Shown: positions 21,231 through 36,096 of the stretch, one piece after another
Numbering within the stretch: the first letter of the stretch is position 1
How the letters are laid out: each line of letters opens with the position of its first letter
Assembly (NCBI RefSeq): GCF_026340675.1
Contig: NZ_JAPEOX010000001.1
Location: forward strand, 5,456,001 to 5,520,000
From: Streptomyces sp. NBC_01264
GTDB taxonomy: Bacteria; Actinomycetota; Actinomycetes; Streptomycetales; Streptomycetaceae
Reading direction: 5' to 3'
DNA: 64,000 bases
Program-made: the position numbers and the translations under genes
Notes under the pieces: generated by a model
What the model was told of the DNA's origin: nothing
The model's input: only the letters and a program-made list of their open reading frames with translations
Database searches by the model: none

Positions 21231-21304
21231 GCCGCCTTAGCTCAGCTGGCCAGAGCAACGCACTCGTAATGCGTAGGTCTCGGGTTCGAATCCCGAAGGC
21301 GGCT
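21231..21304 (+). tRNA. tRNA-Thr (anticodon CGT)
   Basis: A 74-nt cloverleaf. The acceptor stem GCCGCCT pairs with AGGCGGC, the D arm is TTAGCTCAGCTGGCCAGAGC, the anticodon loop CTCGTAA holds CGT at 21265-21267, and the T arm is CGGGTTCGAATCCCG. CCA is not encoded. The 3' part from the anticodon loop onward is duplicated at 36050, showing the gene is an integration site. Confidence 0.97.
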
Positions 21305-21309
21305 CGGAT
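21263..21309 (+). repeat. attL: 47-bp direct repeat at the element's left end
   Basis: Bases 21263-21309 are identical to 36050-36096. They run from the anticodon loop through the discriminator base plus five bases. The left flank (CA versus CC) and the base after (G versus T) differ, defining the core. The integrated element lies to the right. Confidence 0.95.
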
Positions 21310-21397: not shown

Positions 21398-22600
21398 TCA
21401 TCCGGAGAGGGTGACCGGCGCATTTCGCAATGCCAGTGCGACCTTTCGGCCTACGTCCAGTGCGTCTGCGACCTCGTCAAGCCGGTCCGGGAACAGGTGC
21501 CCGTACACGTTCAGCGTCATCGAGGCATCCTTGTGGCCGAGCATCAGCTGGACCACCTTCACGTCCGCGCCAGCCGCGATGGCCAGCGACGCCGCGGTAT
21601 GCCGCAGCTTGTGAGGCGTCACCCCCATGCCGGCCAGGCCAGCGTCACGTACTGCCGGATCAAAGACCCGGTTGCGGAAGTTGTTGTACCGCAGCGGACC
21701 ACCCTCGGGGGCAGTGAACAGCAGATCGCCCTGCCCCTTGTCGCGGGCCAGCGTCCCCAGCTCGTCGGCAAATGACCGAGGCAAAGGCACAGACCGCTTC
21801 TCGTGGTTCTTCACCGGCCCCAAGGCCAGTTCCCCTCGGACGTCGGTGTAGTTCTGCACGATCCGGATGCGCCGCTGCGGCACGGACAGCCGGCCAGTCT
21901 TGATCGCAGAGGCTTCGGCCCACCGGATCCCGCAGTAGCCGAGGGTCAGGATCATCAGCCGGTACTCGCCGGCCGCCTCGGCAAGGTTCTCGAGCTGGTC
22001 GTAGGTGAGGTAGACGTGCTCGTCCTCGTCGTCCGGCCGCGGCAGGTCATGGTCGTGGCAGGGGCTCGAGGAAATCCGCTTCGAGAACACGGCGTGCTTC
22101 ATGGTCATCGAAAGCACGCGGTACGTCTTGACGATCCGTTGCGCTCCGAGGGGTCGTCCGGACTTGCCGGGCTTGTCGCAGAGTTCCGTGATCCAGGCGG
22201 AGACGTCCTCCCACTGAATTGCCGAGACCTGCCAGTCTCCCCACTTAGGGATGACGTAGTTGTCGAGGAGCTCCCGGTAGTCGTGCCGGGTGGTCCGGCC
22301 GATCTTCCGCTTGGACGCGAACCATTCCTCGGCGACCAGCTTGACCGCGGTCTTCCCGGACTTCGGGTCTCGGTACGAGCCCTTGTCTAGCTTCGCGGTC
22401 AGGGCATGTACCTCAGCTTCGGCCTGCGGCAGCTTCTGGAAGGTCAGCGCCTTCGGCTTGTTGTCGGGCCCGTACCAGCGGACCCGCCACCGGCCGGGCG
22501 GCAGCCGCTTGGAGCCCTCGCGCTTCGCGGCCTGCCACTTCTCGAAAGCCGCCTGGTAGTCGGCATGATTCTCTCGGTCTTCGATCCAGACTCGGGCCAT
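21398..22600 (-). CDS. int: Site-specific tyrosine recombinase (integrase)
   Basis: A 400-residue phage-type integrase. The catalytic set is visible: R226 (GIRWAEA), H330-x-x-R333 (HKLRH), H356 (LGHKD) and nucleophile Y366 (NVYGHLFPD). The N-terminal half (about 1-190) holds the arm-binding and SAM-like core-binding domains. The ATG at 22600 has AGGAGG seven bases upstream and overlaps the repressor stop as TGATG, so repressor and integrase form one transcript. It recombines attP with the tRNA-Thr site, next to which it lies. Confidence 0.97.
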   Translation of the reverse strand: MARVWIEDRENHADYQAAFEKWQAAKREGSKRLPPGRWRVRWYGPDNKPKALTFQKLPQAEAEVHALTAKLDKGSYRDPKSGKTAVKLVAEEWFASKRKIGRTTRHDYRELLDNYVIPKWGDWQVSAIQWEDVSAWITELCDKPGKSGRPLGAQRIVKTYRVLSMTMKHAVFSKRISSSPCHDHDLPRPDDEDEHVYLTYDQLENLAEAAGEYRLMILTLGYCGIRWAEASAIKTGRLSVPQRRIRIVQNYTDVRGELALGPVKNHEKRSVPLPRSFADELGTLARDKGQGDLLFTAPEGGPLRYNNFRNRVFDPAVRDAGLAGMGVTPHKLRHTAASLAIAAGADVKVVQLMLGHKDASMTLNVYGHLFPDRLDEVADALDVGRKVALALRNAPVTLSG

Positions 22601-23208
22601 CAGTCCTCCTTCTTGGTCTCCGGGGCCGGCCCGCGGAAGACCTCCTGGCCAGCGGGTGTACGAAGGACCCACTGGTCGCCTTCCATCACCCAGTCCACCG
22701 GGCCGCTAAGGGCCTCGCGCTGGGCCGGTCCCTGCAGCGCTTCGTTGTACATCTTGCGGATCGGGTCGCGATCCCATGCTGGCCGTGAGTCAAGACGGAA
22801 GCGCAGCAGGTCCCCATAAGGGGCAGAGGTGGATCGGGCGAGGGGCTTCTGACCGTCCGCCCATTCCCAGGCTGCGCCGACGGTCACCTCTAGACCTTCT
22901 GTCAGCGTCAGGGGGGCGGCCGAGTCGCCGTCCGTCGGCAGCAGCAGGGCGGACGGACTGACGCTGAGTGCCACCGCGAGGGATACGAGGTCATCCGCGT
23001 CTACTCGCCGCTCGCCTCGCTCGATCTTGCTGATGACGGTCGGCAGCATCGGCCGCCCGATCTCCCCCAAAGCCGCTGACAGATCCTTCTGCTGCATCTG
23101 GCGAGCCTTCCGCCACTTCAGGACGTTCGCCGCGACTCGCTTTGACGTGGGGCCGGGGATCACTGCATTGGAAGCCATGATGGCAAGTCTGGGGCATGCA
23201 GTAGACAT
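22600..23208 (-). CDS. XRE-family repressor-like regulator
   Basis: About 202 residues. A Cro/CI helix-turn-helix lies at roughly residues 25-85 (RKARQMQQKDLSAALG and ISKIERGERRVDADDL), followed by a C-terminal region of about 110 residues with no recognised motif. The start at 23208 has GGAGGT ten bases upstream; MASNAV at 23178 is possible. It is transcribed with the integrase and diverges from the early genes, the position of a master repressor (Stl-like in islands, CI-like in phages). The plus-strand -35 box at 23202 overlaps its start region, so it likely autoregulates there. Confidence 0.85.
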   Translation of the reverse strand: MSTACPRLAIMASNAVIPGPTSKRVAANVLKWRKARQMQQKDLSAALGEIGRPMLPTVISKIERGERRVDADDLVSLAVALSVSPSALLLPTDGDSAAPLTLTEGLEVTVGAAWEWADGQKPLARSTSAPYGDLLRFRLDSRPAWDRDPIRKMYNEALQGPAQREALSGPVDWVMEGDQWVLRTPAGQEVFRGPAPETKKED

Positions 23209-23230
23209 CACGCAAGCTACCTCCATATAC
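23202..23230 (+). promoter_or_regulatory. Early rightward promoter of the element
   Basis: TAGACA at 23202-23207 and TATACT at 23225-23230 are separated by exactly 17 bases. Transcription would start near 23237 and read the HTH and replication genes. The -35 box lies at the divergent repressor's start, so repressor binding here would shut it off. Confidence 0.65.
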
Positions 23231-23270
23231 TTTCCACATCGGTCCGCAGGATCCATGAGGTGGAGATTTC

Positions 23271-23480
23271 GTGCCGCATTTCATGCATGAGCGCGACGAG
23301 TGGCTCACGCCACGACAGGTCGCTGCGATGGCGCAACTCAGTGAGCAGACCCTGGCCAACCACCGCTACCGGGGGATCGGGATCCCGTTCTCAAAGCTCA
23401 CCCCCGGGCGGAGTGGTCGTGTGCGGTACCGCCGCAGCGACGTAGAGCGATGGCTCGCCGGGGAACCGATCGCCGCCTGA
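23271..23480 (+). CDS. Small MerR-like HTH protein (AlpA/excisionase-type)
   Basis: A 69-residue protein with the HTH_17/excisionase pattern: WLTPRQVAAMAQLSEQTLANHRYRG, then VRYRRSDVERWLAG. GTG at 23271 follows GGTGGAG. First gene of the rightward operon. By position and size it could be an excisionase for the integrase, or an activator of the replication genes as AlpA-like proteins are in satellites. Confidence 0.85.
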   Translation: MPHFMHERDEWLTPRQVAAMAQLSEQTLANHRYRGIGIPFSKLTPGRSGRVRYRRSDVERWLAGEPIAA

Positions 23481-23601: not shown

Positions 23602-24042
23602 GTGAACGAGCTTAAGGCCCCACCGCCAGAGATCGCCACCCACGACCCCAACGAGATCGCCGGCCTCTGGGCCGACGCCAAACGCCTGTACCTCGCCGAG
23701 GACTACCCGCCCTACGCCAGCCCCGCCTGGCAGGCACTCCACCCCGACGACCCCGCCCGCCTCGCCAGCGTCCTCGAAGCAGCCGAACTCTGGCGCAAAC
23801 AGTGGGACGCCCTCGAGTACCTGCCCACCGCCGACTGGTACGCGCACGTCTACGGCGACGCACGCCGCCTCACCTCGCAGGTCATCGCCGCCACCAACCG
23901 ACTCCGCGCCTACCGGGAGATCCAAGCCGCACGGTCCAGGCGAGAGCCCCACACCCTCGAGGCCACCCCCGGGTGGCCGCCCATCGCCATCCCCGGACAG
24001 CCCGGACGCTGGCTCACCCACCGTCAGGAGATGGCGGCTTGA
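23602..24042 (+). CDS. DUF2742-like replication-module protein of unknown function
   Basis: A 146-residue protein. The segment YPPYASPAWQALHPDDPARLASVLEAAELW recalls the DUF2742 proteins next to replication genes in actinobacterial prophages such as phiRv1; the match is by eye and weak. GTG at 23602 has GAAGGAG upstream. Its stop overlaps the next start by TTGA, so it is coupled to the RepA-like ATPase and probably takes part in replication initiation or its control. Confidence 0.6.
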   Translation: MNELKAPPPEIATHDPNEIAGLWADAKRLYLAEDYPPYASPAWQALHPDDPARLASVLEAAELWRKQWDALEYLPTADWYAHVYGDARRLTSQVIAATNRLRAYREIQAARSRREPHTLEATPGWPPIAIPGQPGRWLTHRQEMAA

Positions 24043-25355
24043 CCACGCACCACGAAGCGGATGCTCCGCCGGGGGAAGGTCCCTGGGCGGAGCATCCGCA
24101 CGATCAAACCGAAGGCCTCACGTCCGAACAGCACTTCGAGAACCGCGTTGCCGGGCTGATCGACGAGCTGCTCGACACCGACGACCTCGACAAGATGCCC
24201 TCGCTCGAGCCCCTGCTTGGGGACCTGCTGTACCTGAACACCCTGTCCCGCGTCGTCGGCCCCTCAGGACAGTTCAAGTCCTTTGCGGTCATCGACATGT
24301 GCGGCCACATCGGCACGGGTACACCCTGGCACGGCCACTACGTCCGGCAGGGCAGGGTCGTGTACCTGGTCGCCGAGGGCGCCGAAGGCATCCGCAAGCG
24401 CGTCCGAGCCTGGGAGCACCACCACCGTCGGAAGATGGCCAACGTCCTCTTCCTGCCCCGCCCCGTCCAGGCCATGGACCCGGAGTGGGAAGTCCTCGCC
24501 GAGGCCCTGCACCGTATCGAGCCGGCCTTCGTCGTCGTCGACACTCAGGCCCGCGTCACGGTCGGCGTAGAGGAGAACTCCAACACGGAGATGGGCAAGG
24601 TCGTTGACCGCCTCGAGCGCCTCAGAAGCCGCACGGGCGCCTGCGTGCTGGTCATCCACCACACCGGCCACATCGGCGAGCACGGCCGCGGCGCCACCGC
24701 CGTGAAGGGCGCCCTGCAGACCGAGCTGCACGTCTCCAAGAAGGGCGACAAGACCTCCAACACGGTGGTCACCATCAAGAGCGGCAAGCAGAAGGACGAA
24801 GACACCGAGTCCGACCTGCAGTTCGGTCTGAAGATCGTGGCTATCCCGGGTGAGGCCAAGCCGGACGGCCGACCCGTCACGTCGGTCGTCCTGGTGCCGC
24901 GCGAAGAGGTCGACGTGCAGGAGCTCGCCTACGTCGAGGGCTCCATCGAGTGGATCGTCCGGCAGCTGGACATCGCCGAAGTGCCGAACGACTGGGGGCG
25001 TGACCGCGTCCTGGCCAAGTGCACCGAACTCGACCTCAAGGTCGGCAAGGACAAGGCCGCATCCGTTGTTCGCGTGCGAAAGGCCCGGGGCGTAACCCTG
25101 CCCGCGAGCCTGCCCGGACCGGATCTGTTGACACCTGCCCTAGGGCAGGGGGCAGGTCCGGATGAAACCGCAGATCAGACCTGCCCTGGGCAGGACGAGG
25201 GCAGGTCAGGGCAGGCCCCAAACCAGCTGCCTGCCCCCTCCTCTTTTCCAAGGAGGGGGCAGGTGGTGGAGCTGCACCCGGAATGCATCGTCTGCCATAC
25301 CGCCCTTGATGCCGCTTGGGCCTCGCTCGGCAACGACCGACACGTCGCCTGTTAA
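24039..25355 (+). CDS. RepA-like AAA+ ATPase/helicase (RecA-fold, AAA_25 type)
   Basis: A 438-residue protein. Walker A GPSGQFKS lies at 74-81, Walker B PAFVVVDTQ at 162-170, and VLVIHHTGHIG near 205-215 is the histidine motif of RSF1010 RepA-like hexameric helicases and of KaiC/RadA relatives. Residues 340-390 could be a small winged DNA-binding part. The last 70 residues (GPGQDEGRSGQ type) are low complexity because that DNA is an iteron cluster. Start is TTG at 24039, with AGGAG eight bases upstream and coupling to the previous gene. Likely the element's replicative helicase. Confidence 0.85.
   Translation: MTTHHEADAPPGEGPWAEHPHDQTEGLTSEQHFENRVAGLIDELLDTDDLDKMPSLEPLLGDLLYLNTLSRVVGPSGQFKSFAVIDMCGHIGTGTPWHGHYVRQGRVVYLVAEGAEGIRKRVRAWEHHHRRKMANVLFLPRPVQAMDPEWEVLAEALHRIEPAFVVVDTQARVTVGVEENSNTEMGKVVDRLERLRSRTGACVLVIHHTGHIGEHGRGATAVKGALQTELHVSKKGDKTSNTVVTIKSGKQKDEDTESDLQFGLKIVAIPGEAKPDGRPVTSVVLVPREEVDVQELAYVEGSIEWIVRQLDIAEVPNDWGRDRVLAKCTELDLKVGKDKAASVVRVRKARGVTLPASLPGPDLLTPALGQGAGPDETADQTCPGQDEGRSGQAPNQLPAPSSFPRRGQVVELHPECIVCHTALDAAWASLGNDRHVAC
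25097..25263. repeat. Iteron-like cluster: 11 copies of CCTGCCC/GGGCAGG
   Basis: Exact heptamers start at 25097, 25109, 25134, 25180 and 25230 (CCTGCCC) and at 25143, 25150, 25188, 25199, 25209 and 25257 (GGGCAGG). Palindromic pairs such as CCTGCCCTAGGGCAGG occur. The cluster lies in the 3' end of the RepA-like gene. Dense iterons next to a replication gene suggest an origin; this is inference. Confidence 0.75.
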
Positions 25356-25372
25356 CCCCCTGACCTGCGGAA

Positions 25373-25455
25373 GTGGTGGGTTGTGGTGGGTCGCCTGATA
25401 ACCCCCTATGTGCGCACGCGTAGAGAGTTTCAGAAAACCCACCACAACCCACCAC
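25373..25455. repeat. 19-bp perfect inverted repeat (GTGGTGGGTTGTGGTGGGT) around a 45-bp spacer
   Basis: Arms at 25373-25391 and 25437-25455. A nearby imperfect direct repeat TCGCCTG(T/A)TAACCCCCT starts at about 25345 and 25391. The structure sits between the RepA-like gene and the next small gene. It could be part of the origin or a control site. Confidence 0.85.
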
Positions 25456-25475
25456 CCACCACCGATTGGAGACCC

Positions 25476-26111: not shown

Positions 26112-26885
26112 ATGACCGACTACCCCCGCAGCTGGCGCATCAACGCCCGCGCCGGGACCACCGTCCCAGCACCCCCCACCGGCCGCGACTGGTACCGCAT
26201 CCGCAACGCCACCAGCAGCACCGCGGAGATCCTCGTGTACGACGAGGTCGGCTACTACGGAGTGACCGCCAAGGACTTCACCGCGGCCCTCGCAGACGTC
26301 ACCGCCTCGAGCATCAACGTCCGCCTCAACTCCCCGGGCGGCGACGTCCATGACGGACTGGCCATCTACCAGGCCCTGTTGCGACACCCCGCCAACGTCA
26401 CGACGTACATCGACGGCATCGCGGCCTCCATCGCCTCGGTCATTGCGATGGCCGGTGATCGGCGGGTGATCGGGCGGAATGCCAGTTTCATGATTCACGA
26501 GGCCTCGGCACTTTGCTTGGGTCAGGCCAAGGACATGAAGGAGATGGCCGACCTCCTCGAGCGGATGTCCACCAATATCGCGGACATCTACAACCACCGG
26601 ACGGGCCGCGGCAGCGTCGCTGACTGGCGCCGCCTGATGAAGGCCGAGTCCTGGTACACGGGCGCCGAGGCCGTGAAGGCCGGCCTGGCCACCGAGGTCG
26701 ACGACGGCAGCAGCAAGACCGAGGACGCGTGGGCCACCTTCGCCGCGAACCTCAAGGGCAGCCTGGCCGAGCAGACCGAATGGGCCCGCCTGACAGCCCA
26801 CCTGTCCACCAGCCGCGGCCGTGACCAGGTCGCCCAGTACACCGAGCTCGAGCGGATGACCGCACACCTCTGGAGGAACCAGTGA
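26112..26885 (+). CDS. ClpP-like (S14) phage protease
   Basis: A 257-residue serine protease of the ClpP fold. After a 35-residue lead, INVRLNSPGGDVHDGLAIYQAL is the oxyanion/strand region. Catalytic Ser106 lies in GIAASIASVIAMAGD and His129 in FMIHEASAL. The last 60 residues extend beyond the ClpP core. In phages such proteins mature procapsids by cutting scaffold or capsid N-termini. Here no portal, capsid or scaffold gene is adjacent. ATG at 26112; first of five closely packed co-oriented genes. Confidence 0.9.
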   Translation: MTDYPRSWRINARAGTTVPAPPTGRDWYRIRNATSSTAEILVYDEVGYYGVTAKDFTAALADVTASSINVRLNSPGGDVHDGLAIYQALLRHPANVTTYIDGIAASIASVIAMAGDRRVIGRNASFMIHEASALCLGQAKDMKEMADLLERMSTNIADIYNHRTGRGSVADWRRLMKAESWYTGAEAVKAGLATEVDDGSSKTEDAWATFAANLKGSLAEQTEWARLTAHLSTSRGRDQVAQYTELERMTAHLWRNQ

Positions 26886-27274
26886 CCACCCTCAACCTCA
26901 CCGGCTACCCCGCGGAGACCGGCTACTGGATCGAGGTGTCCCAGCCTCGCCTCGACCTGCCCCGCGACCTGATGGAGTTCTTCGGTCGGACCGGCCAGTG
27001 GCTGCAGTCGCCGCCCGGGCGGGTCGTGACTGAGCAGCTGTGGCCCGCCCTCGGCGGTGGCATCGCTGACGCGGGCTGGACGCCTCCCTCGCCGACGGTC
27101 TCCATCAACCTGACCGGTCTCACCCGGCCGGAGAAGGCCACCCTGGCCCGTCACCTCGACGAGTTCGCCCGGTCCTACTCGAGCACAGGCATGATCCGCG
27201 CCCTGGTTGCCGCGATCGTCGCCGAGGACGAGGCCGCTCGGACCGACCCGCACGCGCCCGGCCTGCTCGGCTGA
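26882..27274 (+). CDS. Unknown protein coupled to the ClpP-like protease
   Basis: A 130-residue protein that starts with GTGA, overlapping the protease stop, after GGAGG. It has a mixed alpha/beta look (SPTVSINLTGLTRPEKATLARHLDEFARSY) and no recognised motif. Strict coupling to the protease suggests joint action or stoichiometric expression. Confidence 0.7.
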   Translation: MTTLNLTGYPAETGYWIEVSQPRLDLPRDLMEFFGRTGQWLQSPPGRVVTEQLWPALGGGIADAGWTPPSPTVSINLTGLTRPEKATLARHLDEFARSYSSTGMIRALVAAIVAEDEAARTDPHAPGLLG

Positions 27275-27303
27275 CCCACACCCCTGACCCTTAGGAGACA
27301 CCC

Positions 27304-28191
27304 ATGGCAACCCAGCAGGACATCGCGCGCGTGGCCATCGATCTCGAGGAGGCTGAGGCCACCGTCGAGAAGCTGCGCCGGAAGAGGTTCATCAGCATCG
27401 AGGCCGGCGCCAGCTACTCCGCTGCGAAGGGCCGTATCGAGCTGGCCCAGCAGGAGCTCGACCGCCTGAACGCCGAGTGGGAGGCGGAGCAGGAAGCGCT
27501 CGCCAACCGGCCCAGCGTTGAGAAGTCCGTCGCGAAGGACATCGACGCCGCGCAGAAGCAGCTCGAGGCGTCCCGCAAGCGACTCACGGAAGCGGCCACG
27601 AGGGCCCAGCAGGCCCTCGTTGAGGTCGCGGCTGCATCAGACGACCACAACGCGCTCATAGCCCAGCAGAGCGCCGCGCTGGCTGTCCGCGGCTTGCGTC
27701 TCGAGGACAACCACGACCATCAGACCGGTGGCGGGCCGAAGGGTGCGAGGGTCCGCGGGGCCTGGTGGGTGCCGGTCGAAACCCCGGCGCTCCTTGTCTG
27801 GGTCATGCACCGCGCCGCGGCGGCAGCTCTGCCCGGCCGGCACCAGCTCGTCGGGTCCCTCAAGTACGCCCACGGGCGATACGAGTTCGAGAGGAAGGCA
27901 GCACATTTGCTCGCCGGGGTGCCGGCTCTGTCGCCGCTTCCCGTCGTGCCCATGCTTCGCCCCGACGCGGTCGACCTGAGGGTCCCGGCGTACATCAAAT
28001 CGCGGCAGCTGGCCGAGGAGCAGATCCGGCGGCGGCTGCAGGGCCACACGAAGCCGGTGATGGGGGACGACGGCGTGCTCTACCCCGAGCCGTGCGAAGC
28101 GTCTGCTGCCGTGAAAGCAGAGGTCGAGCAGGAGCTGAAGACGCTCCGCGACAACATCAAGTCCGGTCGCATCGTTGCGAAGTACCCGTGA
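27304..28191 (+). CDS. Coiled-coil protein of unknown function
   Basis: A 295-residue protein. Residues 1-115 are a long charged coiled coil (DLEEAEATVEKLRRKRF then QQELDRLNAEWEAEQEAL). A globular middle (GARVRGAWWVPVETPALLVWV) and a helical C-terminus (RQLAEEQIRRRLQGH then VKAEVEQELKTLRDNI) follow. ATG at 27304 with AGGAGA upstream. No family recognised. It lies between a protease and a tape-measure-like gene, so a structural or chaperone role in particle assembly is possible. Confidence 0.7.
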   Translation: MATQQDIARVAIDLEEAEATVEKLRRKRFISIEAGASYSAAKGRIELAQQELDRLNAEWEAEQEALANRPSVEKSVAKDIDAAQKQLEASRKRLTEAATRAQQALVEVAAASDDHNALIAQQSAALAVRGLRLEDNHDHQTGGGPKGARVRGAWWVPVETPALLVWVMHRAAAAALPGRHQLVGSLKYAHGRYEFERKAAHLLAGVPALSPLPVVPMLRPDAVDLRVPAYIKSRQLAEEQIRRRLQGHTKPVMGDDGVLYPEPCEASAAVKAEVEQELKTLRDNIKSGRIVAKYP

Positions 28192-28520
28192 GCGCCGACG
28201 AGCCCACGTACAGCGTGGTCCGCATGGCGGCGGGTGACGGGAAGGGCCTGCCCGTACTGCTGCTGTGCGTCACCGATGACGACGTGGCCGCGGCCCGCGA
28301 GCAGGTACGGGCCGGGAATCTTGACCACCTCGCGGTCATCATGATCGTCGTGTCGTTCTTGCACAGCCTCGGCGTGGACCCTGCTGCCCATGACTGGAGC
28401 AGCGCCGAGTACATCGGGCTCCTCGAGATGCTGGGCATGCCGCCCTTCGAGTGGTCGCCGCTCGACGACACCGAGCTGACCCGCCTCCTCGCCGAGGCGG
28501 TGAGCTCACATGGCCAATGA
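28188..28520 (+). CDS. Unknown protein immediately before the tape-measure-like gene
   Basis: A 110-residue acidic protein starting at GTG 28188, overlapping the previous stop (GTGA), and ending 11 bases inside the next gene. It contains LDHLAVIMIVVSFLHSLGVDP and ends with PFEWSPLDDTELTRLLAEAV. In siphophages this position is held by tail-assembly chaperones. I see no slippery sequence for the usual frameshift, so that role is only suggested by position. Confidence 0.65.
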   Translation: MSADEPTYSVVRMAAGDGKGLPVLLLCVTDDDVAAAREQVRAGNLDHLAVIMIVVSFLHSLGVDPAAHDWSSAEYIGLLEMLGMPPFEWSPLDDTELTRLLAEAVSSHGQ

Positions 28521-31461
28521 CATTGAGATCAACGTCAGGGTCGCGAACAACACACGGGCCGGCCTGTCCGCCATCCAGCGGTCCATGGATGGCCTGCGGC
28601 AGCACGCCCGGACAGCCGGCACATCCCTCACCGCGCTGGCCCCCCGTGCGACTGCTGCGGCGGCTGCCCTTGAGGTCCTCGCGCACGCGGCTGATGAGGC
28701 GGGTGACGCACTGCGAACCCTGCAGGGCCGGGCATCTCTGGCCGGCGTCGCACTGGCAGAGGTCCGGACGTCCAGCCAGGGAACATCGACGTCCCTCCGC
28801 AGCGTCTCGAGGAGCGCGGGGAGTGCCGACACCCAGATGGAAGCGCTCACCGGCCGGACGCGGGCGCTCCGAGACAACATGAACGAGCTGGACGGCACGT
28901 TCAGTCGGGCCGGGGCCAGCATGGGCACGCTCCGCGGCAACCTCGGAACCCTCAGCACGTCAGCCGGTGGGGCTGCAGACGGGCAGCAGAGGCTCATACA
29001 GGCCGCTGTCGCCCTGGGCCCGGCACTCATCCCCATCGCCGCCTCGATAGCGCCGGTAGCTGTGGGCCTGGGCGCCGCCGCGGTCGCGGCCGGAGCGTTC
29101 GGTGCCGCCTTGGCCCCTCAGCTGCTGGCCATGGGGAAGATCACCGAGGCACAGAAGGCGTACAGCGAATCCCTGGAAGAGAACGGCCGGTACGCCGCGG
29201 AGACTGCGCAGGCTGAGAACGAGTGGCTGAAACAGGTTCAGAAGGCGTCGCCTGAGGTGCGGAAGGCCGCTGCCTCGCTCAGCGTGATGAAGGACCAGTA
29301 CAAGGGCTGGACGGACAGCCTTGCTGGGGACACGCTGCCCGTCGCCACGAAGTCGTTCGCCGCGTTCGGCGCCCTCTTCCCGAAGATGACACCGCTTGTA
29401 CAGGGAGCCTCGGGCCAGCTCAGCCGGTTCGTGACGCTGGCGGCGGGCGGCATCCAGTCGCCGGCCTTCGACCGGTTCATGGACAGCTTCAGCACCTTCG
29501 CGACGGAGACGCTGGCGAAAGCGAACAGCGGCCTGGTCCGGTTCGCCACGAACCTGGACGCGGGGAAGATGTCCAGCGGCATCGCCGAGTTCATGCGCTA
29601 CGCGAAGGAGAACGGGCCGCTCGTCGCCGAGACGCTCGGCAACCTGGGTGAGGTGCTCGTCCGCATCGTCCGCGCGGCCGCGGACACGGGTGTCTCCGTC
29701 CTCTCGCTGGTCAACGCGTTCGCTGGCCTGGTCAACGCGATACCGACGGGCCTGCTGACGGCGCTGGTACAGACGGCCGTGGCCCTCAACGCGGTGAAGC
29801 TGGCGGCGGCAGGGTTCGCCGTGGTGGGGCCCGCCATGCTTGCCGCGGCCGGCGGGATCCGCACCTTCATCGCGTCCGCCCGGTTCGCTGGTCTGTCGAT
29901 GGCGATCTCCGGTGTGGCGGCCAGCCTGACCGCTCTCCAGAAGGCCTCGGTAGTTGTTGCGGTCATCGCAGGAATCGGCATGGCGATGAACTCGCTGGCG
30001 GAGAAGGCGCGGGGTGCGCCGCCGGACGTCGACAAGCTCACCCTCTCCCTGAAGGAGCTGGGCGCGACCGGAAAGTTCACGGGTGAGCTGAAGAAGTCGT
30101 TCGGTGACATGGATGGGCTGGTCCAGAAGATGGGGCAGCTGCAGGAGGCGACGAAGAAGGCTGGCGACGCGGGCAAGGGTGCGTTCGGATTCAAGATCCC
30201 CGTCCTCGACGACATCGGCAATTGGCTGGGCACGAAGTCGGTTGAGATGGCCAAGGGAGAGGAGTCGGCCCGTGCCCTGGGGGACGCATTCAAGGGCATC
30301 GACGCAGCCCTGGCTAATGTAGTGAAGAGCGGCAACGCCGACCTCGCCGCCGCCGCCTTCGATGGGATTGCAGAGTCCGCGGCGAAGGATGGGCGCTCGC
30401 TGCAAGAGGTCAAGGACCTGATGCCGTCTTACGGCGAGGCTCTGGCCAACGTGGCAGCGGAGCAGGAGATCACAGCCCGGTCCATGGGCCTCTTCGGAGA
30501 GCAGGCCGTTGCCGTGCAGGCCAAGCTGGACCTTCAGAAGCAGTCCGCTGATGGGCTGCGGCAGTCCATCCAAGCCCTGAACGACGCCAACAGGTCTGCC
30601 CTCGACGGCATGATCGGATTCGAAGCTGCGATCGATGCGGCAGCGAAGGGGGCCGCCGAGAATGCCGGATCCCTCGACATGGTTAACGGTGTCCTCGACC
30701 TCAACGGGGAGAAGGCACGAACGGCCGCATCGCTGCTCTCGGCCTTGGCGGCGAAGACCGGCGAGGCAGCGCTGGCGGCCCGTGAGAACGGCGCGTCGTG
30801 GGAGACCGTGGGCGGTATCTACGAGCGCGCCCGTGAGCAGATGATTGCCAACGCTCGTGAGATGGGGCTGAACAAGGACCAGGCGAAGGCCCTGACGGAC
30901 CAGCTCCTGGCCGCGCCAGGTGAGATGACGTCTTATCTGAGGGGCGACATCAAAGACCTGGATGCGAAGCTGAAGGACGCGCGGGCCCGGCTGGCCGCAG
31001 CCCCGTCCTCCAAGCAAGTGGCGATCCGTGCGGAGATCTCAGACCTGCTTGCCAAGAAGAAGCAGGCGCAGGCGGCCCTAGACTCCCTCGACTCCAAGAC
31101 CGTGTATATCCGCACCATCTATCAAAACTTCACGTCTAACCACCCGGGCGGTCAGGCGCAGGCCCACGGCGGGATCATCGGCGCTGCGGGTGGTGGGCCG
31201 CGATCACGGATGACGCTTGTCGGTGAGCAGGGACCTGAGCTGGTGGACCTGGCTCCCGGGTCTCGGGTCCGCTCTAACCCTGACTCGAAGCGGATCGCCG
31301 CCGGCATGGCCGGCGGTGGGGGTGGCGGAGGCCCGATCCTGGTGCAGGTCATGCTCGACGGCCGGCAGCTCGCCCAAGTGTTGGTCGATCCGCTGCAGTA
31401 CGAGATCGGCACGCGAGGCGGCAACGTGCAGTCGGTACTTGGAAAGGGGACGGGTAGCTGA
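28510..31461 (+). CDS. Tape-measure-like phage protein
   Basis: A 983-residue protein beginning MANDIEINVRVANNTRAGLSAIQRSM, a common opening of siphophage tape measures. The first 170 residues and 640-860 are helical repeats; two Ala/Gly/Val hydrophobic stretches (near 170-210 and 395-500) match membrane-penetrating segments. Near the C-terminus, HGGIIGAAGGGPRSRMTLVGEQGPELVDLAPG is the Gly-rich HGG..GE.GPE motif seen in many tape measures. Length would predict a tail of roughly 150 nm by the usual residue-to-length rule. No other tail gene follows. Confidence 0.85.
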   Translation: MANDIEINVRVANNTRAGLSAIQRSMDGLRQHARTAGTSLTALAPRATAAAAALEVLAHAADEAGDALRTLQGRASLAGVALAEVRTSSQGTSTSLRSVSRSAGSADTQMEALTGRTRALRDNMNELDGTFSRAGASMGTLRGNLGTLSTSAGGAADGQQRLIQAAVALGPALIPIAASIAPVAVGLGAAAVAAGAFGAALAPQLLAMGKITEAQKAYSESLEENGRYAAETAQAENEWLKQVQKASPEVRKAAASLSVMKDQYKGWTDSLAGDTLPVATKSFAAFGALFPKMTPLVQGASGQLSRFVTLAAGGIQSPAFDRFMDSFSTFATETLAKANSGLVRFATNLDAGKMSSGIAEFMRYAKENGPLVAETLGNLGEVLVRIVRAAADTGVSVLSLVNAFAGLVNAIPTGLLTALVQTAVALNAVKLAAAGFAVVGPAMLAAAGGIRTFIASARFAGLSMAISGVAASLTALQKASVVVAVIAGIGMAMNSLAEKARGAPPDVDKLTLSLKELGATGKFTGELKKSFGDMDGLVQKMGQLQEATKKAGDAGKGAFGFKIPVLDDIGNWLGTKSVEMAKGEESARALGDAFKGIDAALANVVKSGNADLAAAAFDGIAESAAKDGRSLQEVKDLMPSYGEALANVAAEQEITARSMGLFGEQAVAVQAKLDLQKQSADGLRQSIQALNDANRSALDGMIGFEAAIDAAAKGAAENAGSLDMVNGVLDLNGEKARTAASLLSALAAKTGEAALAARENGASWETVGGIYERAREQMIANAREMGLNKDQAKALTDQLLAAPGEMTSYLRGDIKDLDAKLKDARARLAAAPSSKQVAIRAEISDLLAKKKQAQAALDSLDSKTVYIRTIYQNFTSNHPGGQAQAHGGIIGAAGGGPRSRMTLVGEQGPELVDLAPGSRVRSNPDSKRIAAGMAGGGGGGGPILVQVMLDGRQLAQVLVDPLQYEIGTRGGNVQSVLGKGTGS

Positions 31462-31621
31462 CACCTCTGACACCCGCTGACACCTCTGACACCCGCTGAC
31501 ACCCCGGAGGGTCGGGCGGCCCTTTTTCTTAAGGTGGGGTGGGGTGTCAGCCGCCCCTGACACCTGACTGACACCCCCGCTGACACCTGCTGACAGCAGC
31601 CCTGACACCCCGGCTGACACC
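31459..31621. repeat. Repeat block A: TGACACC/GGTGTCA, 11 copies
   Basis: TGACACC starts at 31459, 31468, 31478, 31487, 31497, 31558, 31569, 31581, 31603 and 31615; GGTGTCA at 31543. The first copy overlaps the tape-measure stop codon. GGGCGGC 31514-31520 and GCCGCCC 31550-31556 form an additional hairpin. The word equals the half-site of the palindromes at 35701 and 35728. Confidence 0.9.
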
Positions 31622-31631
31622 TGTCTATCGG

Positions 31632-31740
31632 CCGTCTAGACCCCGTCTTTTACCCGTCTATAGCCCGTCTAGGGATCTCTGGGCGCCGCTCGGTAGCCGG
31701 GCTATAGACGGGGTCTAGACGGGTCATAGACGGGCGACAA
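31632..31740. repeat. Repeat block B: CCGTCTA/TAGACGG
   Basis: CCGTCTA at 31632, 31654 and 31665; TAGACGG at 31705, 31716 and 31727; near copies CCGTCTT and AAGACGG. Nested inverted pairs: 31632-31644 with 31710-31722 (13 bp) and 31653-31664 with 31701-31712 (12 bp). Confidence 0.9.
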
Positions 31741-31767
31741 GACGGGGCATATGTTGCGGATCGGCGG

Positions 31768-31921
31768 CTGCTCAACTGCTGCTCACGACTGCTCCGTCGC
31801 AGGTCACAGCCGCTCAGGTTGCTGCTCAGGCCCTGCTCGTGGATCTTCTGAGCACCAGCTTGAGCAGCGGATTGAGCGGCTGTGACCTGCGACGGAGCAG
31901 AGCTGAGCAGCTCGTGAGCAG
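31768..31921. repeat. Repeat block C: CTGCTCA/TGAGCAG with a 28-bp perfect inverted repeat
   Basis: CTGCTCA at 31768, 31779 and 31822; TGAGCAG at 31861, 31904 and 31915. Arms 31789-31816 and 31873-31900 are perfectly complementary over 28 bases around a 56-base spacer that itself contains the inverted pair GCTGCTCA/TGAGCAGC. Confidence 0.92.
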
Positions 31922-31922
31922 T

Positions 31923-32095
31923 GGACAAACCTGCCGGAACTACCCCGGACGCTGTCCCGGTATGTCCCGGACATCCCCCCGGACAGAGGGCGGGCAGGTT
32001 GGACAGTGGCCGGGTGCTGTCCGGCCCGCATTCCGGGGCATATTAGGGCGCTGTCCGGCCCCTGTCCGGGGCCACACCGGGGCCACGCGTGGACA
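31923..32095. repeat. Repeat block D: TGTCC/GGACA
   Basis: TGTCC at 31953, 31963, 32018, 32052 and 32063; GGACA at 31923, 31969, 31981, 32001 and 32091. GCTGTCCGGCCC occurs twice (about 32016 and 32050). Confidence 0.75.
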
Positions 32096-32190
32096 CGCAG
32101 GTCAGAGCGCTGGCACACCCCAGGGTCACGGCCAGGGCCGTTGGAACATGGGGCGGTCCTACGCCTACAGGATGATCGCCTCTGCCGAGA

Positions 32191-32214
32191 CAGTGTCGCC
32201 AATTGGCGACACTG
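32191..32214. repeat. 24-bp perfect palindrome inside the ParB-like fragment
   Basis: Bases 32191-32214 read the same on both strands (half CAGTGTCGCCAA). A second palindrome, arms AGGCTTTCA 32338-32346 and TGAAAGCCT 32351-32359, lies downstream in the same frame. Confidence 0.9.
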
Positions 32215-32483
32215 GACTCCCTGTTCCGACCAACGAGGCACAGGCCCGCGAGCTCGCCCGAGTCCCCGAACCGCAGCGCGTCGATGTCTGGCGGGAGACC
32301 GTCGAGCGAACCGGTGGCCAGCCGACCGCGGCCGCCCAGGCTTTCAATTCTGAAAGCCTCCCTGCCCGCACTCAAGGTGCCGATGGCAAGAGCTACGCGG
32401 CAACGCGGAGCGCGGCCGAGCCAGACCTCCTCGCCGGCGATGACTGGCAGCAGCCTGCGGGCCCGGGCTTCGAGGCCGCCGTC

Positions 32484-32622
32484 ACCCGGCGCCTGCCCGG
32501 TATGCACCCGGCAGCACCCCGGCGGACACCCGGCAGGAACGCCCGGTGGCCCCGGACTTCGCCGGCCTCGCGCCGGGTCTATGCCGGGTCTACGCCGGGC
32601 TGTTGCCGGGTCTGCGCCGGGT
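32484..32622. repeat. Repeat block E: ACCCGGC/GCCGGGT
   Basis: ACCCGGC at 32484, 32506 and 32528; GCCGGGT at 32572, 32583, 32605 and 32616, with near copies between. All left copies face one way and all right copies the other, so the block is one large imperfect inverted repeat. Confidence 0.85.
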
Positions 32623-32624
32623 AC

Positions 32625-32719
32625 GTTCACTCGTTCGTTCACTCGGGGTAGACGTGAACGTCTTCCTCTACTACGCGCGCACGTGCGCGCAGGCGCGCGG
32701 CGGCGCGTTGGGGGTGAAC
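32625..32719. repeat. Repeat block F: GTTCACTCG/GTGAACG
   Basis: GTTCACTCG at 32625 and 32637, GTGAACG at 32654 and 32714. CGCGCAC/GTGCGCG words occur between them (32678-32700). Confidence 0.65.
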
Positions 32720-32762
32720 GGCTCACCCCGGACGGCTTGAGCCGAGCCGTTGAGCCATCGCC

Positions 32763-33063
32763 GTGGCGCCACAGACAGCCCGCCACGACAGAGGCAAAAG
32801 CGCCACGGGAAGGCGCCACGGCGGCACAGCAGGAGGCGCCACGAGAGCGCCACAGCAAAGCGCCACGGGCGGAACTTTGACTGCGACTGCGACTGCGACT
32901 GCGACTCTCACTCTGCCCTCCCCCACCCGAGCAGGGGGGATAGGGGGTGAGTCGCAGTCGCAGTCAAAGTAAGAGTGGAAGCTGTGGCGCCCCCATGGCG
33001 CTCTGCCATGGCGCCCCGCTTACCGTCCCCGGTAGGAGTCGGGGGCGGGCGACAGGGCGCCAC
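32763..33063. repeat. Repeat block G: GCGCCAC/GTGGCGC
   Basis: GCGCCAC at 32766, 32800, 32813, 32836, 32847, 32860 and 33057; GTGGCGC at 32763 and 32984. Block H is nested within it. Confidence 0.88.
32876..32968. repeat. Repeat block H: GACTGC hexamers forming a 19-bp inverted repeat
   Basis: TTTGACTGCGACTGCGACT at 32876-32894 is perfectly complementary to 32950-32968. The spacer holds two more hexamers and a CCCTCCCCC/GGGGGGATAGGGGG pairing. Confidence 0.9.
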
Positions 33064-33072
33064 AGTGGAGCG

Positions 33073-33534
33073 TCAGTTGGCGCCGATAATCGCGGCCAAC
33101 TGGTCGCGCATCAGCCGCAGGCGGGCCGTGTAGTCCGTCAGCTGGGCGATGAGGTCGTCGGTCTCCTCGACGCCCATGTCGACTGTGTTGTCCCAGCCGT
33201 CCAGGGACACGAAGATGACGGCCGCGTCCGGGGCCAGGCCGCCTTCCGTGGTGTGCACCATCAGCCGTGCCGTCAGCAGGGCCTGCACGTCGGGGAAGTC
33301 GCCGGACGGGGCCCGCATCGGGACGACGCAGATCGGTGCCGACTCGTGGAAGTCGTCGGACAGCCGGCGGTGGGTGCCGTTGGCCCAGTCAGCGGTGTGG
33401 TCTTCGGCGCACCAGTCCGGGCACTCAACTTGCAGGACCAGGCCGGGGACGGCACCGGGTCCCTGGTAGCGCCGCGGTCCGACGCGGACGGTCCGGTCGG
33501 TGTCGAGGCTGCCGGCGAGAAGCTGCGTGGACAT
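33073..33534 (-). CDS. Small protein with C-P-x-W-C...DH signature (DUF6907-like)
   Basis: A 153-residue protein. ECPDWCAEDHTADWANG is a cysteine/histidine signature seen in small actinobacterial proteins (DUF6907 type, from memory). A beta-rich middle (AVIFVSLDG) and a C-terminal helix (DDLIAQLTDYTARLRLMRDQL) follow. ATG at 33534 has AAGGAG nine bases upstream. It is the first of three proteins in this cluster with a related W-C-x(4)-H or C-x(4)-H motif. Possible metal binding. Role unknown. Confidence 0.7.
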   Translation of the reverse strand: MSTQLLAGSLDTDRTVRVGPRRYQGPGAVPGLVLQVECPDWCAEDHTADWANGTHRRLSDDFHESAPICVVPMRAPSGDFPDVQALLTARLMVHTTEGGLAPDAAVIFVSLDGWDNTVDMGVEETDDLIAQLTDYTARLRLMRDQLAAIIGAN

Positions 33535-33570
33535 CAGCGGTACTCCTTCAAGGGCTTGGGAGGCTTGGGC

Positions 33571-33640
33571 GTAAAGGGCTCCGAGGCCTTCTGAATATTG
33601 GGCTCGGAGCCCTACGGGGGATTGGGTCGGAGCCCTTTAC
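33571..33640. repeat. Repeat block I: GGGCTCCGA/TCGGAGCCC
   Basis: GTAAAGGGCTCCGA at 33571-33584 is perfectly complementary to 33627-33640. The palindrome GGGCTCGGAGCCC lies between, near 33600-33613. The block is upstream of the minus-strand gene at 33073-33534. Confidence 0.88.
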
Positions 33641-33675
33641 CCCCTAGGGCCGGGGCCGCTCCGCAGGGCCGGAAC

Positions 33676-33870
33676 ACTTGCGATGCGACCTGCGGTTCGG
33701 GGCGCCCCGAAGCAGGGGGGCACTTGCGATACACGCTGCAGCGATGCGGCCCGCAGAAGGCCAGGCATTAGGGATTCGACCTGCGTCGTTCCCGCCTCCG
33801 GGAAGGGCCTTCACTTGGATCGCACGCTGCACCGTTCCCCCCTCCGAGGGGAGGGGGGAGATCGGTCACA
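33676..33870. repeat. Repeat block J: CACTTGCGAT and CACGCTG words
   Basis: CACTTGCGAT at 33676 and 33721, CACTTGGATCGCACGCTGC at 33812, CGACCTGCG twice (near 33687 and 33777), and CACGCTG three times. No coding frame is supported here; it separates two minus-strand gene groups. Confidence 0.7.
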
Positions 33871-34111
33871 CGCTGGGCTGACCCGGCACCGCGTACCGGT
33901 GGGCGTAGGCGGCCAGCTCCGCGTTCTCGAACTCGACCTCGTCCGCCTCCGGGCACCGCCGACCCGCCTCCGGGGAACCCGCCACGGCACCGCACAGGAA
34001 GCAGTCAACGAACTCCCACGAGTGGCCGAGCGAGTCCAAAGGAATCGGCCGCGGGATGTACGCGAGCGAGCCGCGCCCCTCATCGAGCCGGACCAGAACC
34101 ATGCTGCTCAT
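33866..34111 (-). CDS. Small protein of unknown function, last gene of a four-gene operon
   Basis: An 81-residue protein starting MSSMVLVRLDEGRGSLAYIP. It contains CFLCGAV and a later RRCPEADEVEF, so three cysteines could bind metal. ATG at 34111 overlaps the stop of the upstream gene (ATGA). No family recognised. Low-complexity codons upstream of 34111 in the same frame are not counted. Confidence 0.65.
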   Translation of the reverse strand: MSSMVLVRLDEGRGSLAYIPRPIPLDSLGHSWEFVDCFLCGAVAGSPEAGRRCPEADEVEFENAELAAYAHRYAVPGQPSV

Positions 34112-34296
34112 TCGCCCACCCGTCCGTCCCGCGCAATGCGCTGAACCAGCCGCCGGCAGAGCCGGGCCCCGTACAGGTCCCCTGCCCGCTCCGCGACCAC
34201 CAGCCCCTGGAACGCCACCCCCAGGGGCGGCAGCGTCTCCGTCACACGCCCCAGAGCGGCGGCCTCCGTCGGCCTGCGAACCACCGCGGTCCCCAT
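34108..34296 (-). CDS. Very small protein of unknown function in the same operon
   Basis: A 62-residue protein, MGTAVVRRPTEAAALGRVTE onward, ending RRLVQRIARDGRVGE. AGGAGG lies nine bases before ATG 34296 (or six before GTG 34299). Starts and stops overlap both neighbours, which is the main evidence that it is real. Confidence 0.6.
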   Translation of the reverse strand: MGTAVVRRPTEAAALGRVTETLPPLGVAFQGLVVAERAGDLYGARLCRRLVQRIARDGRVGE

Positions 34297-34670
34297 CACT
34301 GGCCACCCTCCTGAAGCGCCTGCAGGCGGTCCCTCAGGGGCAGCAGCCCGTACAGGGCGTGCGCGGTGATCGCCTGCGCGAGGTCGCTCAGACCGGCCGG
34401 GTCGAACTCCGGGTGCTCCCCGTCGATCTCAACGACGACCTTTACGTCCCGGCTGCCGGACTCGGAGAACGGGAACTGTGTCAGGTTCGCCCGCAGCAAC
34501 TCCACCCGCCGGCCCTCAACCTCGACCACCGCCGCGTGCTGTACGCCGTCATGGCGGATCCCGGACCGGTGGTTGCCTGCCGGGTGGTCCACCACGCACC
34601 ACGAAGGCTCCTCGAGGACGACCAGGCCGTGGTCGAGGGTTTCCACGATCACGGTGCGCGGGGCGGTCAC
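34296..34670 (-). CDS. Small protein with a W-C-x(3)-DH motif (DUF6907-like)
   Basis: A 124-residue protein. EEPSWCVVDHPAGNH matches the CPDWCAEDH region of the 33073 gene and is followed by a beta-rich section and a C-terminal helix (LRDRLQALQEGG). GTG at 34670 overlaps the previous stop as GTGA. Probable paralogue of its two neighbours. Function unknown. Confidence 0.7.
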   Translation of the reverse strand: MTAPRTVIVETLDHGLVVLEEPSWCVVDHPAGNHRSGIRHDGVQHAAVVEVEGRRVELLRANLTQFPFSESGSRDVKVVVEIDGEHPEFDPAGLSDLAQAITAHALYGLLPLRDRLQALQEGGQ

Positions 34671-35191
34671 AGCTGCACCCGGCCCTGCTCGCGCAGCTCG
34701 ACCAGCTGGGCGTGAACCTCGCGGAACCGGGTCAGCTGGGCCTCGAGCGTCAGGATGACCGTGGCCAGCCCGTCCGGGTCGAGGCTCTCCATCCAGTGGT
34801 CATCGACGATCTCGACCTGCGCGTGAGGCACACGCTCGTGCAGGTGGCGGGAGAACGGCTCCTGCCGGATGAACGCGGACAAGACCCGGAACTCCTCGAC
34901 CTTGCCGCTCTCAGCGATGGGCAGGTACACGTCCCGGCTGGCCGTGCAGCACCAGATGTCGTGCGGGTGCTGCGGCGACTCCATGTCCAGGGTGTGGTCG
35001 GCGACGCAGCCCTGCAGGCAGGTGACGTCCTGCATGTTGCCGGTCGTGCGGTCGAGGAACGACCACGTGCGGGCCGGCGGGCCGGCGGGGAGGGTCTCGC
35101 GGGTCTTCGCCGTCGGCTGGACGGGGACCGCGGTCAGCTTCGGCTCCGGGCGGAACATGCGGGGCAGGTTGGCGGGTACGGTGTTGCTCAT
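34667..35191 (-). CDS. Protein with a C-x(3)-C-x(2)-DH motif (DUF6907-like), first of the operon
   Basis: A 174-residue protein. VTCLQGCVADHTLD, then IWCCTASRDVYLPI, and a C-terminal helix with LEAQLTRFREVHAQLVELRE make it the longest of three related proteins. ATG at 35191, AGGGAG upstream. Four genes run from here to 33866 with 3-4-base overlaps. Confidence 0.7.
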   Translation of the reverse strand: MSNTVPANLPRMFRPEPKLTAVPVQPTAKTRETLPAGPPARTWSFLDRTTGNMQDVTCLQGCVADHTLDMESPQHPHDIWCCTASRDVYLPIAESGKVEEFRVLSAFIRQEPFSRHLHERVPHAQVEIVDDHWMESLDPDGLATVILTLEAQLTRFREVHAQLVELREQGRVQL

Positions 35192-35269
35192 GGTTCGACT
35201 CCCTGTGTCTGAGGGTTCGGATCCAGGCCCCGTTCCGGCGTTCGCGCGCCGGGCGGGGCTGCTTGCGTT

Positions 35270-35671: not shown

Positions 35672-35700
35672 CGTGGCCCCCTTGCTTGACCCGGGCTCCC

Positions 35701-35741
35701 GGTGTCATGACACCCACGATAGACCCTGGTGTCATGACACC
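35701..35741. promoter_or_regulatory. Two perfect 14-bp operators GGTGTCATGACACC
   Basis: Identical palindromes at 35701-35714 and 35728-35741, 27 bases start to start, lying between the divergent WYL and ribbon-helix-helix-like genes. The half-site TGACACC is the repeated word of block A. Confidence 0.92.
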
Positions 35742-36049: not shown

Positions 36050-36096
36050 CTCGTAATGCGTAGGTCTCGGGTTCGAATCCCGAAGGCGGCTCGGAT
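36050..36096 (+). repeat. attR: 47-bp direct repeat at the element's right end
   Basis: Identical to 21263-21309. It is the 3' piece of the original tRNA-Thr gene, left behind when the element supplied its own copy at attL. Confidence 0.95.

Follow-up and report, generated by a model that had tools for sequence, protein, structure and literature searches.

The window analysed here is a stretch of 64,000 nucleotides from the chromosome of Streptomyces sp. NBC_01264 (genome label G000; contig NZ_JAPEOX010000001.1, positions 5,456,001 to 5,520,000). It carries a 14.8-kb element (21263-36096) that is inserted in tRNA-Thr and encodes, besides the genes collected in Table 1, small proteins without an assigned family. 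The 1.6 kb between the tape-measure-like gene of this element and its first DUF6907 gene are occupied by word blocks, i.e., seven blocks (B1-B7, 31457-33070) that are each built from a different short repeated word, with GACTGC nested inside one of them; two further blocks (C1 and C2) are found at 25.1-25.5 kb. Judged by the comparisons described below, 31457-33070 is likely to be a battery of about seven cis-acting clt loci with different specificities, located on an integrative element without detectable TraB. TraB is an FtsK-like hexamer, which recognises clt words and transfers double-stranded plasmid DNA (PMC4170104, PMC3583192). As a TraB profile search of the window gave no match at E≤1, the blocks do not lie on a TraB-encoding element and are therefore called 'clt-like' or 'clt mimics'.

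An earlier note on this DNA had described the region as a mosaic of at least eight single-word blocks and proposed a word count against shuffled controls. For this count (k=6, 7 and 8) frames of 150 bp were each compared with the maximum of 3000 order-2 Markov controls. Between 31.4 and 33.87 kb 16 of 50 frames lay above all 3000 controls for k=7 (15 for k=6 and 16 for k=8), as the note had expected. The control maximum was also exceeded by 5 of 247 frames in the rest of the element, of which four lie at 25.05-25.35 kb and the fifth, at 31351, on the edge of the battery. It was likewise exceeded by 33 of 981 frames outside the element, most strongly at 45.9 kb, where a 7-bp unit is perfectly repeated in tandem. 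The words in the flagged battery frames were TGACACC, CCCGTCT, CTGCTCA, CCGGACA, ACCCGGC, GCGCCAC and GACTGCG. No frame was flagged for GTTCAC and none that starts beyond 32851, and therefore the GGGCTCCGA and CACTTGCGAT blocks of the proposed mosaic are unsupported; with copies of 1+2 and 2+0 (direct+inverted), respectively, they are too few to count as blocks. The mosaic is thus reduced to seven blocks, including the GTTCAC block (B6), which is supported by its recurrence in other genomes.

The 11 copies of TGACACC noted earlier were recovered as 10 direct and one inverted copy. Likewise, the words hardly mix between blocks, the only strays of battery words being one copy each of TGTCC in the ACCCGGC block, of ACCCGGC in the TGTCC block and of GACTGC in the CTGCTCA block. 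CCTGCCC, a word of the 25-kb region, is also present with single copies in B4, in the spacer and in B5. Inverted arms within the blocks (64 nt at 83%, 46 nt at 78% and 48 nt at 73% identity) agree with the view that blocks with words in both orientations fold on themselves. The battery has the direct repeats of a short word and the inverted repeats that are typical for clt loci, B6 with only 2+2 copies and unflagged by the scan. Since the words are block-specific, occur mostly in both orientations and hardly mix, clustered regularly interspaced short palindromic repeats (CRISPR), ordinary tandem repeats and a single iteron array could be ruled out, as had been proposed. A fixed counting rule (one word at least four times, in both orientations) gives six battery blocks for the window and the two blocks at 25 kb, and the counts of 7, 7, 6 and 3 used below for the window, G055, L583 and G192 add blocks by eye or alignment. 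Of the ten or more families that had been counted together with the 25-kb blocks, seven plus two remain, and the 25-kb pair is of a different kind (probably replication iterons).

A search of the genome with the battery resulted in seven matches: the region itself, three of its own inverted arms, a 161-bp piece with 99% identity and two word matches. The last three fall at 3.318-3.332 Mb of the same genome. Here a TraB/FtsK-like gene (L009:136-2211) ends in an ACCCGGC array with both orientations, the sole such block in the 40 kb read, and this array suggested clt loci as the identity of the blocks. For pWTY27 it has been described that clt begins within the 3' end of traA, and that the TraA footprint covers two stretches, one of which holds all four TGACACC repeats (PMC3583192). 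The clt of pIJ101 is reported to be located near korB (PMC3583192), and therefore the position at the end of traB is not universal.

For the traB set, genes with a match to the TraB alignment profiles A1 or A2 were gathered; they provided 103 distinct 3' ends. The A1 search matched 26 of 295 genomes, to which 11 contig loci were added, and the A2 search of 295 genomes contributed 30 loci plus 40 regions selected by hand. Further traB ends came from a TGACACC pattern search (loci picked by eye) and from three plasmids. L040 and L041 duplicate L013 and L014, and tails with identical ends were dropped. Profile scores are below 100 bits for 21 of the 103 tails, many of them because only the 3' part was covered. 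The background for comparison was taken from the loci that had also supplied the first 34 traB genes. Word arrays across the traB stop codon lay above 95% of this background for 81 of the 103 ends and above its maximum for 73, with the best windows of the latter starting at -60 to +40 from the stop. Without the 14 ends obtained from the TGACACC pattern these numbers were 67 and 59 of 89. The words vary with the TraB family and comprise TGACACC, CTGCTCA, CCGTCTA/CCCGTCT, ACCCGGC, CCCGTCC, GCCGATC, CCGGAAC, GTCACGG, TAGTGGG, GGAACAG and others. Concerning the proteins, the TGACACC type reaches 978 bits and thereby exceeds the NCBIfam plasmid_TraB cut-off of 800, the A1-type proteins are distant from this family (32.5 bits for L009), and the A1 and A2 alignments match each other over 470 columns with 100% probability. 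The CTGCTCA-type protein of L045 has no Pfam or NCBIfam match and is linked to TraB via the A1 profile only.

The blocks were aligned with these 103 tails and with 300 control stretches, a set that includes L209, a part of the G192 element described below and the source of the C2 score of 140 (Table 1). Scores above all 300 controls were reached by 32 tails for B1, 8 for B2, 11 for B3 and 2 for B5, and the alignments of these four blocks also exceeded all 25 mononucleotide shuffles made of each block. B1, B2, B3 and B5 share a word or a long match with a known clt or a traB-adjacent array; by these matches they can be regarded as clt-like, and the TGACACC word of B1 is identical to the pWTY27 clt repeat. 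The role as multiple protein-binding arrays, one of several considered in the earlier note, fits to this result, as four of the seven blocks match clt loci of TraB systems. In addition, degenerate cores of B3 (19 bp) and B2 (20 bp), built from the window and the traB tails, were searched in viral contigs. This yielded 28 B3-core and 8 B2-core stretches, of which 23 and 7 (30 of 36) are located 34-143 bp downstream of a traB stop; L731, which belongs to these 30, holds a TraB fragment of 134 bits. The other six comprise the battery L583 and five stretches that, on inspection by eye, seem to be unrelated; three of these five are the same sequence in three contigs.

Table 1. Word blocks and other features of the element in tRNA-Thr (copies in brackets are exact copies in the own block, direct+inverted).
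Feature	Position	Strand	Evidence
B1, clt-like, word TGACACC (10+1)	31457..31621	.	same 7-mer as footprinted clt repeat DC1 of pWTY27
B2, clt-like, word CCGTCTA (3+3)	31622..31750	.	20-bp core at traB 3' ends (7/8 viral stretches)
B3, clt-like, word CTGCTCA (3+3)	31768..31925	.	best traB-tail score 126, control maximum 26; 19-bp core at traB 3' ends (23/28 viral stretches)
B4, word TGTCC/TGTCCGG (5+4)	31926..32110	.	recurs in G055 battery (score 37); cognate traB not found among sampled tails
Spacer with coding remnant	32111..32479	.	32327-32487 99% identical to G000:C1:3318051-3318211
B5, clt-like, word ACCCGGC (3+4)	32480..32625	.	best match is clt of resident traB of the same genome (L011), score 75, control maximum 31
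B6, word GTTCAC (2+2), palindrome GCGCGCACGTGCGCGC at 32675	32625..32745	.	recurs in G055 battery (score 52); cognate traB not found among sampled tails
B7, word GCGCCAC (7+2), nested GACTGC (4+2) hairpin 32874-32970	32757..33070	.	copy counts, inverted arms; cognate traB not found among sampled tails
C1, word CCTGCCC, proposed replication iterons	25100..25262	.	aligns to blocks of L058 (94) and L059 (50)
C2, word GTGGTGGGT, proposed replication iterons	25360..25475	.	aligns (140) to G192:C16:116856-116958
tRNA-Thr(CGT), integration site	21231..21305	+	ARAGORN, Rfam
att repeat, left copy, 47 bp exact	21263..21309	.	
att repeat, right copy, 47 bp exact	36050..36096	.	
Tyrosine integrase	21398..22672	-	Pfam PF00589, E 2.1e-21
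HTH_3 repressor-like protein	22600..23256	-	Pfam PF01381
HTH_17 protein, excisionase-like	23271..23480	+	Pfam PF12728
AAA_25 helicase-like replication protein, TTG start	24039..25355	+	Pfam PF13481, E 1.7e-36; phrog_906, E 8.5e-56
ClpP-like head maturation protease	26112..26885	+	Pfam PF00574; phrog_2976, E 1e-73
Tape-measure-like protein, 983 aa	28510..31461	+	44.8% over 79% of length to hypothetical protein of phage ZL12
DUF6907 protein a	33073..33534	-	Pfam PF21848
DUF6907 protein b	34296..34670	-	Pfam PF21848
DUF6907 protein c	34667..35191	-	Pfam PF21848

The genome of the window contains a single A1-type traB, which is located outside the element and bears the B5 word at its 3' end, and therefore a candidate helper is present in the genome. 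The 161-bp piece lies directly before B5, and its counterpart is situated about 12-14 kb from this resident traB, which points to a recent exchange between the hitchhiker and its candidate helper. L009 (G000:C1:3330001-3350000) also encodes relatives of the ClpP-like and tape-measure-like proteins of the window (50% and 47%), and the resident traB region appears to be a conjugative element with phage structural genes. No array was found at L282, a weak FtsK-like match in the same genome.

Similar batteries were found in three other elements, and in the sequence covered of all four battery elements the TraB profile search gave no match at E≤1. The battery of G055 (C3:8798.3-8799.3 kb) has seven blocks in about 1 kb, partly defined by eye (GTTCAC, by alignment, ACCCGGC, CCGTCTA, CTGCTCA, CTGCTCG, TGTCCGG and GGGTCAC), and belongs to a prophage that has genes for portal, S78 protease, capsid and tape-measure proteins. 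Five of the seven words of the window recur here with same-word scores from 37 (TGTCCGG) to 97, whereas other word pairs score at most 26, except for the related CTGCTCA/CTGCTCG with 39. L583 is a viral contig with six blocks defined by eye and three DUF6907 genes behind the battery. When reversed, it shows TGACACC, CCGTCTA, CTGCTCA and a CCGGAC block in the same order as the window, with scores of 92 for CTGCTCA, 39 for CCGTCTA and 35 for TGACACC. It shares the IMG name prefix 2918501144 with L731, the partial TraB end with a CCGTCTA core. In G192 (C16:109.6-110.2 kb) three blocks are present (CCCTGCC, a TGACACC-like block in one orientation, and CCTGGAC), and the element encodes an integrase, a D5_N-type replication protein and DUF6907. 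Scans of viral contigs for word triples gave at least 360 loci; among the nine examined only L583 showed two words of the window. Block order and orientation differ between batteries. The question raised in the earlier note, whether block order is kept while the words change, had a different outcome: the order is partly kept, and the words recur across batteries. DUF6907 genes lie near all four batteries (window 33073-35191, L583, L199 and G055).

If the battery serves transfer, the element would excise via its integrase and the HTH_17 protein, and the excised element would replicate via the helicase and the 25-kb iterons. A co-resident conjugative element would supply TraB, which would recognise its own word in the battery and transfer the circle to a partner. 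Each block would be a ticket for one TraB family and all blocks together would set the helper range, with B4, B6 and B7 as predicted tickets for TraB families outside our sample. More generally, we lean towards the idea that 'universal ticket' batteries of clt mimics evolved as modules in Streptomyces prophages and small integrative elements, with one TraB family gained or reshuffled at a time, and that they allow phage-type elements without a transfer gene to spread also as double-stranded circles, via many TraB systems that are unrelated to each other. If this is true, the battery words would be a readable record of the helper range, and unmatched words would predict TraB families not yet tied to a clt. 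Every block is a separate, deletable prediction.

Several points weigh against the assignment of the whole battery to clt loci. For B4, B6 and B7, two of which (B4 and B6) recur in another battery, no matching word array was found next to a sampled traB. The best tail score of B4 (30) equals the control maximum of 30 with 0 of 103 tails above it, B7 reaches 32 versus 31 with one tail above, and B6 reaches 41 versus 30 with five tails above and a shuffle maximum of 36. Three copies of the B4 word or of CGTTCAC (B6) occur in 0 of 103 traB tails, and three copies of GCGCCAC in one (L118, TGACACC type). When 30 GCGCCAC loci (one being the window itself) and 60 CGTTCAC/TGTCCGG loci were taken from among many matches, 0 of 90 adjoined traB, and by eye the matches of these three patterns are mostly regularly spaced repeats. 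DNA searches with B4 gave short matches only. For the traB ends themselves, 22 of 103 have no array above background. The words are 81-97% identical to the cognate tails and the spacers 56-78% (14 alignments), which favours clt loci, but this contrast is inflated by local alignment and small for L043 and L046. Sampling was not independent, as A2 and the cores were partly built from TraBs or tails of the same classes. By the fixed rule G055 has five blocks, L583 four (one GTGACA-type) and G192 two in the battery plus five elsewhere in 61 kb, compared with 0 or 1 block in each TraB-positive region (18 of the 30 TraB-positive viral stretches and the 40-kb resident region), which likewise speaks for the clt reading, but these sets were not blind since the batteries were found by looking for them. 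L583 was covered for 10.5 kb of its 17.7-kb contig. Its CCGGAC block scores 27 against B4, whereas B4 reaches up to 35 with other L583 blocks, and therefore the fourth correspondence to the window is unsupported by alignment. A conjugative-type TraB was not found in the genomes of G055 and G192 (three candidates per genome scored). Finally, clt-like sequences have been reported to be scattered over Streptomyces chromosomes (PMC4170104, PMC3218068), where they may allow TraB to mobilise chromosomes (PMC3218068, PMC12857230).

The blocks at 25 kb are of importance for one of the alternatives. Relatives of the helicase at E≤1e-30 were found in 9 of 199 genomes including that of the window, and the surroundings were read in the other eight. 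Strong blocks are located at the 3' end of the helicase gene in six of these eight (CCTGCCC, CTGTCCC in two cases, CTCCCCC, ATACACC and ACCTGTC); the two weakest relatives are L066, whose AGGTGAC block is about 450 bp farther away, and L067, where no block is present. By analogy with the iterons described for pWTY27 (PMC3583192), C1 and C2 are probably replication iterons. They adjoin a replication gene, which is not the case for 31457-33070. In L209:3856-3958 (identical to G192:C16:116856-116958) a close copy of the GTGGTGGGT block adjoins the D5_N replication gene at its 3' end, yet the replication protein of the window is an AAA_25 helicase.

Apart from transfer, the blocks might act as a decoy array which, as a kind of fertility inhibition, titrates or blocks TraB proteins made by conjugative competitors. 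The same sequence facts would then be expected, and several words per block would bind the TraB of rivals. However, the inverted-arm layout of the traB-adjacent arrays is retained beyond what titration needs, and the integrase, the excisionase-like protein and the replication protein are present, as a transferable circle would need, so that a decoy instead of a transfer function appears unlikely; both roles could be compatible with each other. Alternatively, the region might be a graveyard or recombination hotspot, in which successive recombined conjugative elements left their clt ends without any present function. The 161-bp stretch with 99% identity to one near the resident traB, which shows that exchange happened, as well as the varying order and orientation of blocks between batteries would agree with this. 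It is nevertheless distinctly unlikely in our view: batteries with common words and a partly common order occur in four elements in which no TraB was detected, words are better conserved than spacers (a biased comparison), and even at E≤1 there is no TraB profile match.

That the blocks are iterons, i.e., sites of replication proteins gathered from several replicons, is suggested by the similar-looking blocks at the 3' ends of replication genes (in six of eight helicase relatives and, C2-like, beside the D5_N gene of G192). However, B1, B2, B3 and B5 match traB 3' ends and the battery adjoins no replication gene, which makes this explanation very improbable, although the argument of the traB matches does not cover B4, B6 and B7. 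The related proposal that the sites were copied from phage replicons was not borne out, as none of 50,697 phage records was matched by blastn at E≤0.01 and four blocks match clt loci instead. A chain of RNA hairpins, also considered in the earlier note, or terminators could account for the long inverted arms and for a terminator-like stretch near 31504-31530 in B1. Yet for four of the seven blocks DNA arrays of the same words are found where traB ends, i.e., at transfer loci, and TraA of pWTY27 is described to footprint one of these words, TGACACC, in double-stranded DNA; an RNA function is therefore hardly credible. Among the known RNA families in Rfam only the tRNA was matched at gathering level.

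Transfer by clt mimics has to be compared with several known systems. The clt loci of pWTY27, pJV1, pIJ101 and pSVH1 also consist of short repeated words and inverted repeats, TGACACC is identical in pWTY27, and four blocks have long matches adjacent to traB. However, the clt loci described in PMC3583192 belong to the Tra-encoding plasmid, whereas here about seven specificities are lined up on an element in which no TraB was detected. On chromosomal clt-like sites, as reported for pSVH1, a plasmid TraB may also act off its own element (PMC4170104, PMC3218068, PMC12857230), but as described there these sites are spread over the chromosome for one TraB, whereas the battery is a dense array of several specificities inside mobile elements. 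Comparable in concept are the oriT (origin of transfer) mimics of staphylococcal plasmids (pWBG749 family; pWBG762 carries three), by which a non-conjugative element mimics the transfer origins of several helpers (PMC8136818). The system described there relies on a relaxase and a type IV secretion system, in contrast to the TraB-type sites for double-stranded DNA found here with up to seven per array and also in a prophage.

Concerning its class, the window element has an integrase and flanking att repeats and lacks a self-transfer gene, for TraB only, according to the profile search, as expected for an integrative and mobilizable element. With its integrase, att sites, replication protein, missing transfer gene and probable use of a helper it resembles these elements or 'hitchers' (PMC11389934), a review that also cites the mobilizable plasmid pEC156 as having multiple oriTs. 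The main text of this review does not contain the terms 'TraB' or 'AICE'. Actinomycete integrative and conjugative elements (AICEs) and their remnants share the tRNA integration, the replication protein and the clt words of TraB systems, but the window element has no detected traB. It is not a complete prophage either, as among the scanned proteins only the ClpP-like head protease and the tape-measure-like gene were found, without a full set of terminase, portal, capsid and tail genes. For the tape-measure-like protein no PHROG match was found at E≤0.1, and with DUF6907 protein a as query no relative was found in the viral contigs.

Mimicry of a helper oriT is already known (PMC8136818, PMC11389934), and what looks new is an array of several specificities for TraB transfer of double-stranded DNA, which was found in a prophage as well. 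This proposes an answer to a question printed as open in PMC9513070, namely whether one Streptomyces element is able to exploit the TraB of another, and suggests that TraB-less elements, a prophage included, may move by conjugation of double-stranded DNA. The word array across the traB stop codon offers a simple sequence rule for many clt loci, by which helper and hitchhiker can therefore be paired by sequence.

Some further observations concern single blocks and their surroundings. The 3' flank of B7 (33011-33059) matches the flank of the L583 battery, and its GACTGC hairpin matches GACTGC repeats in many genomes and plasmids. B6 recurs intergenically in G074 and G167 with 80% identity over 66 bp. 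In these genomes (L334 and L335) the B6 homologue lies upstream of a protein of about 360 aa and a longer protein (839 aa seen in L335), without a Pfam or NCBIfam match in L335, and this region is possibly another transfer module. The coding remnant in the spacer contains a perfect palindrome, CAGTGTCGCCAATTGGCGACACTG, at 32191-32214 and a second, imperfect one at 32341-32356, which recall the sps palindromes described inside spdA genes (PMC4170104) but differ in sequence. The single match in the plasmid collection at E≤1e-5 (125 bp) also lies in the spacer (32212-32336). Two other traB loci, L196 and L198, show CCGCTAC/CGCTACC blocks at about 6.75-6.85 kb, i.e., about 3 kb past traB, which are perhaps the replication iterons of those elements. 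Outside the element, the tandem repeat at 45928-46057 of the window consists of 18.6 perfect copies of the 7-bp unit TCGCGGA.

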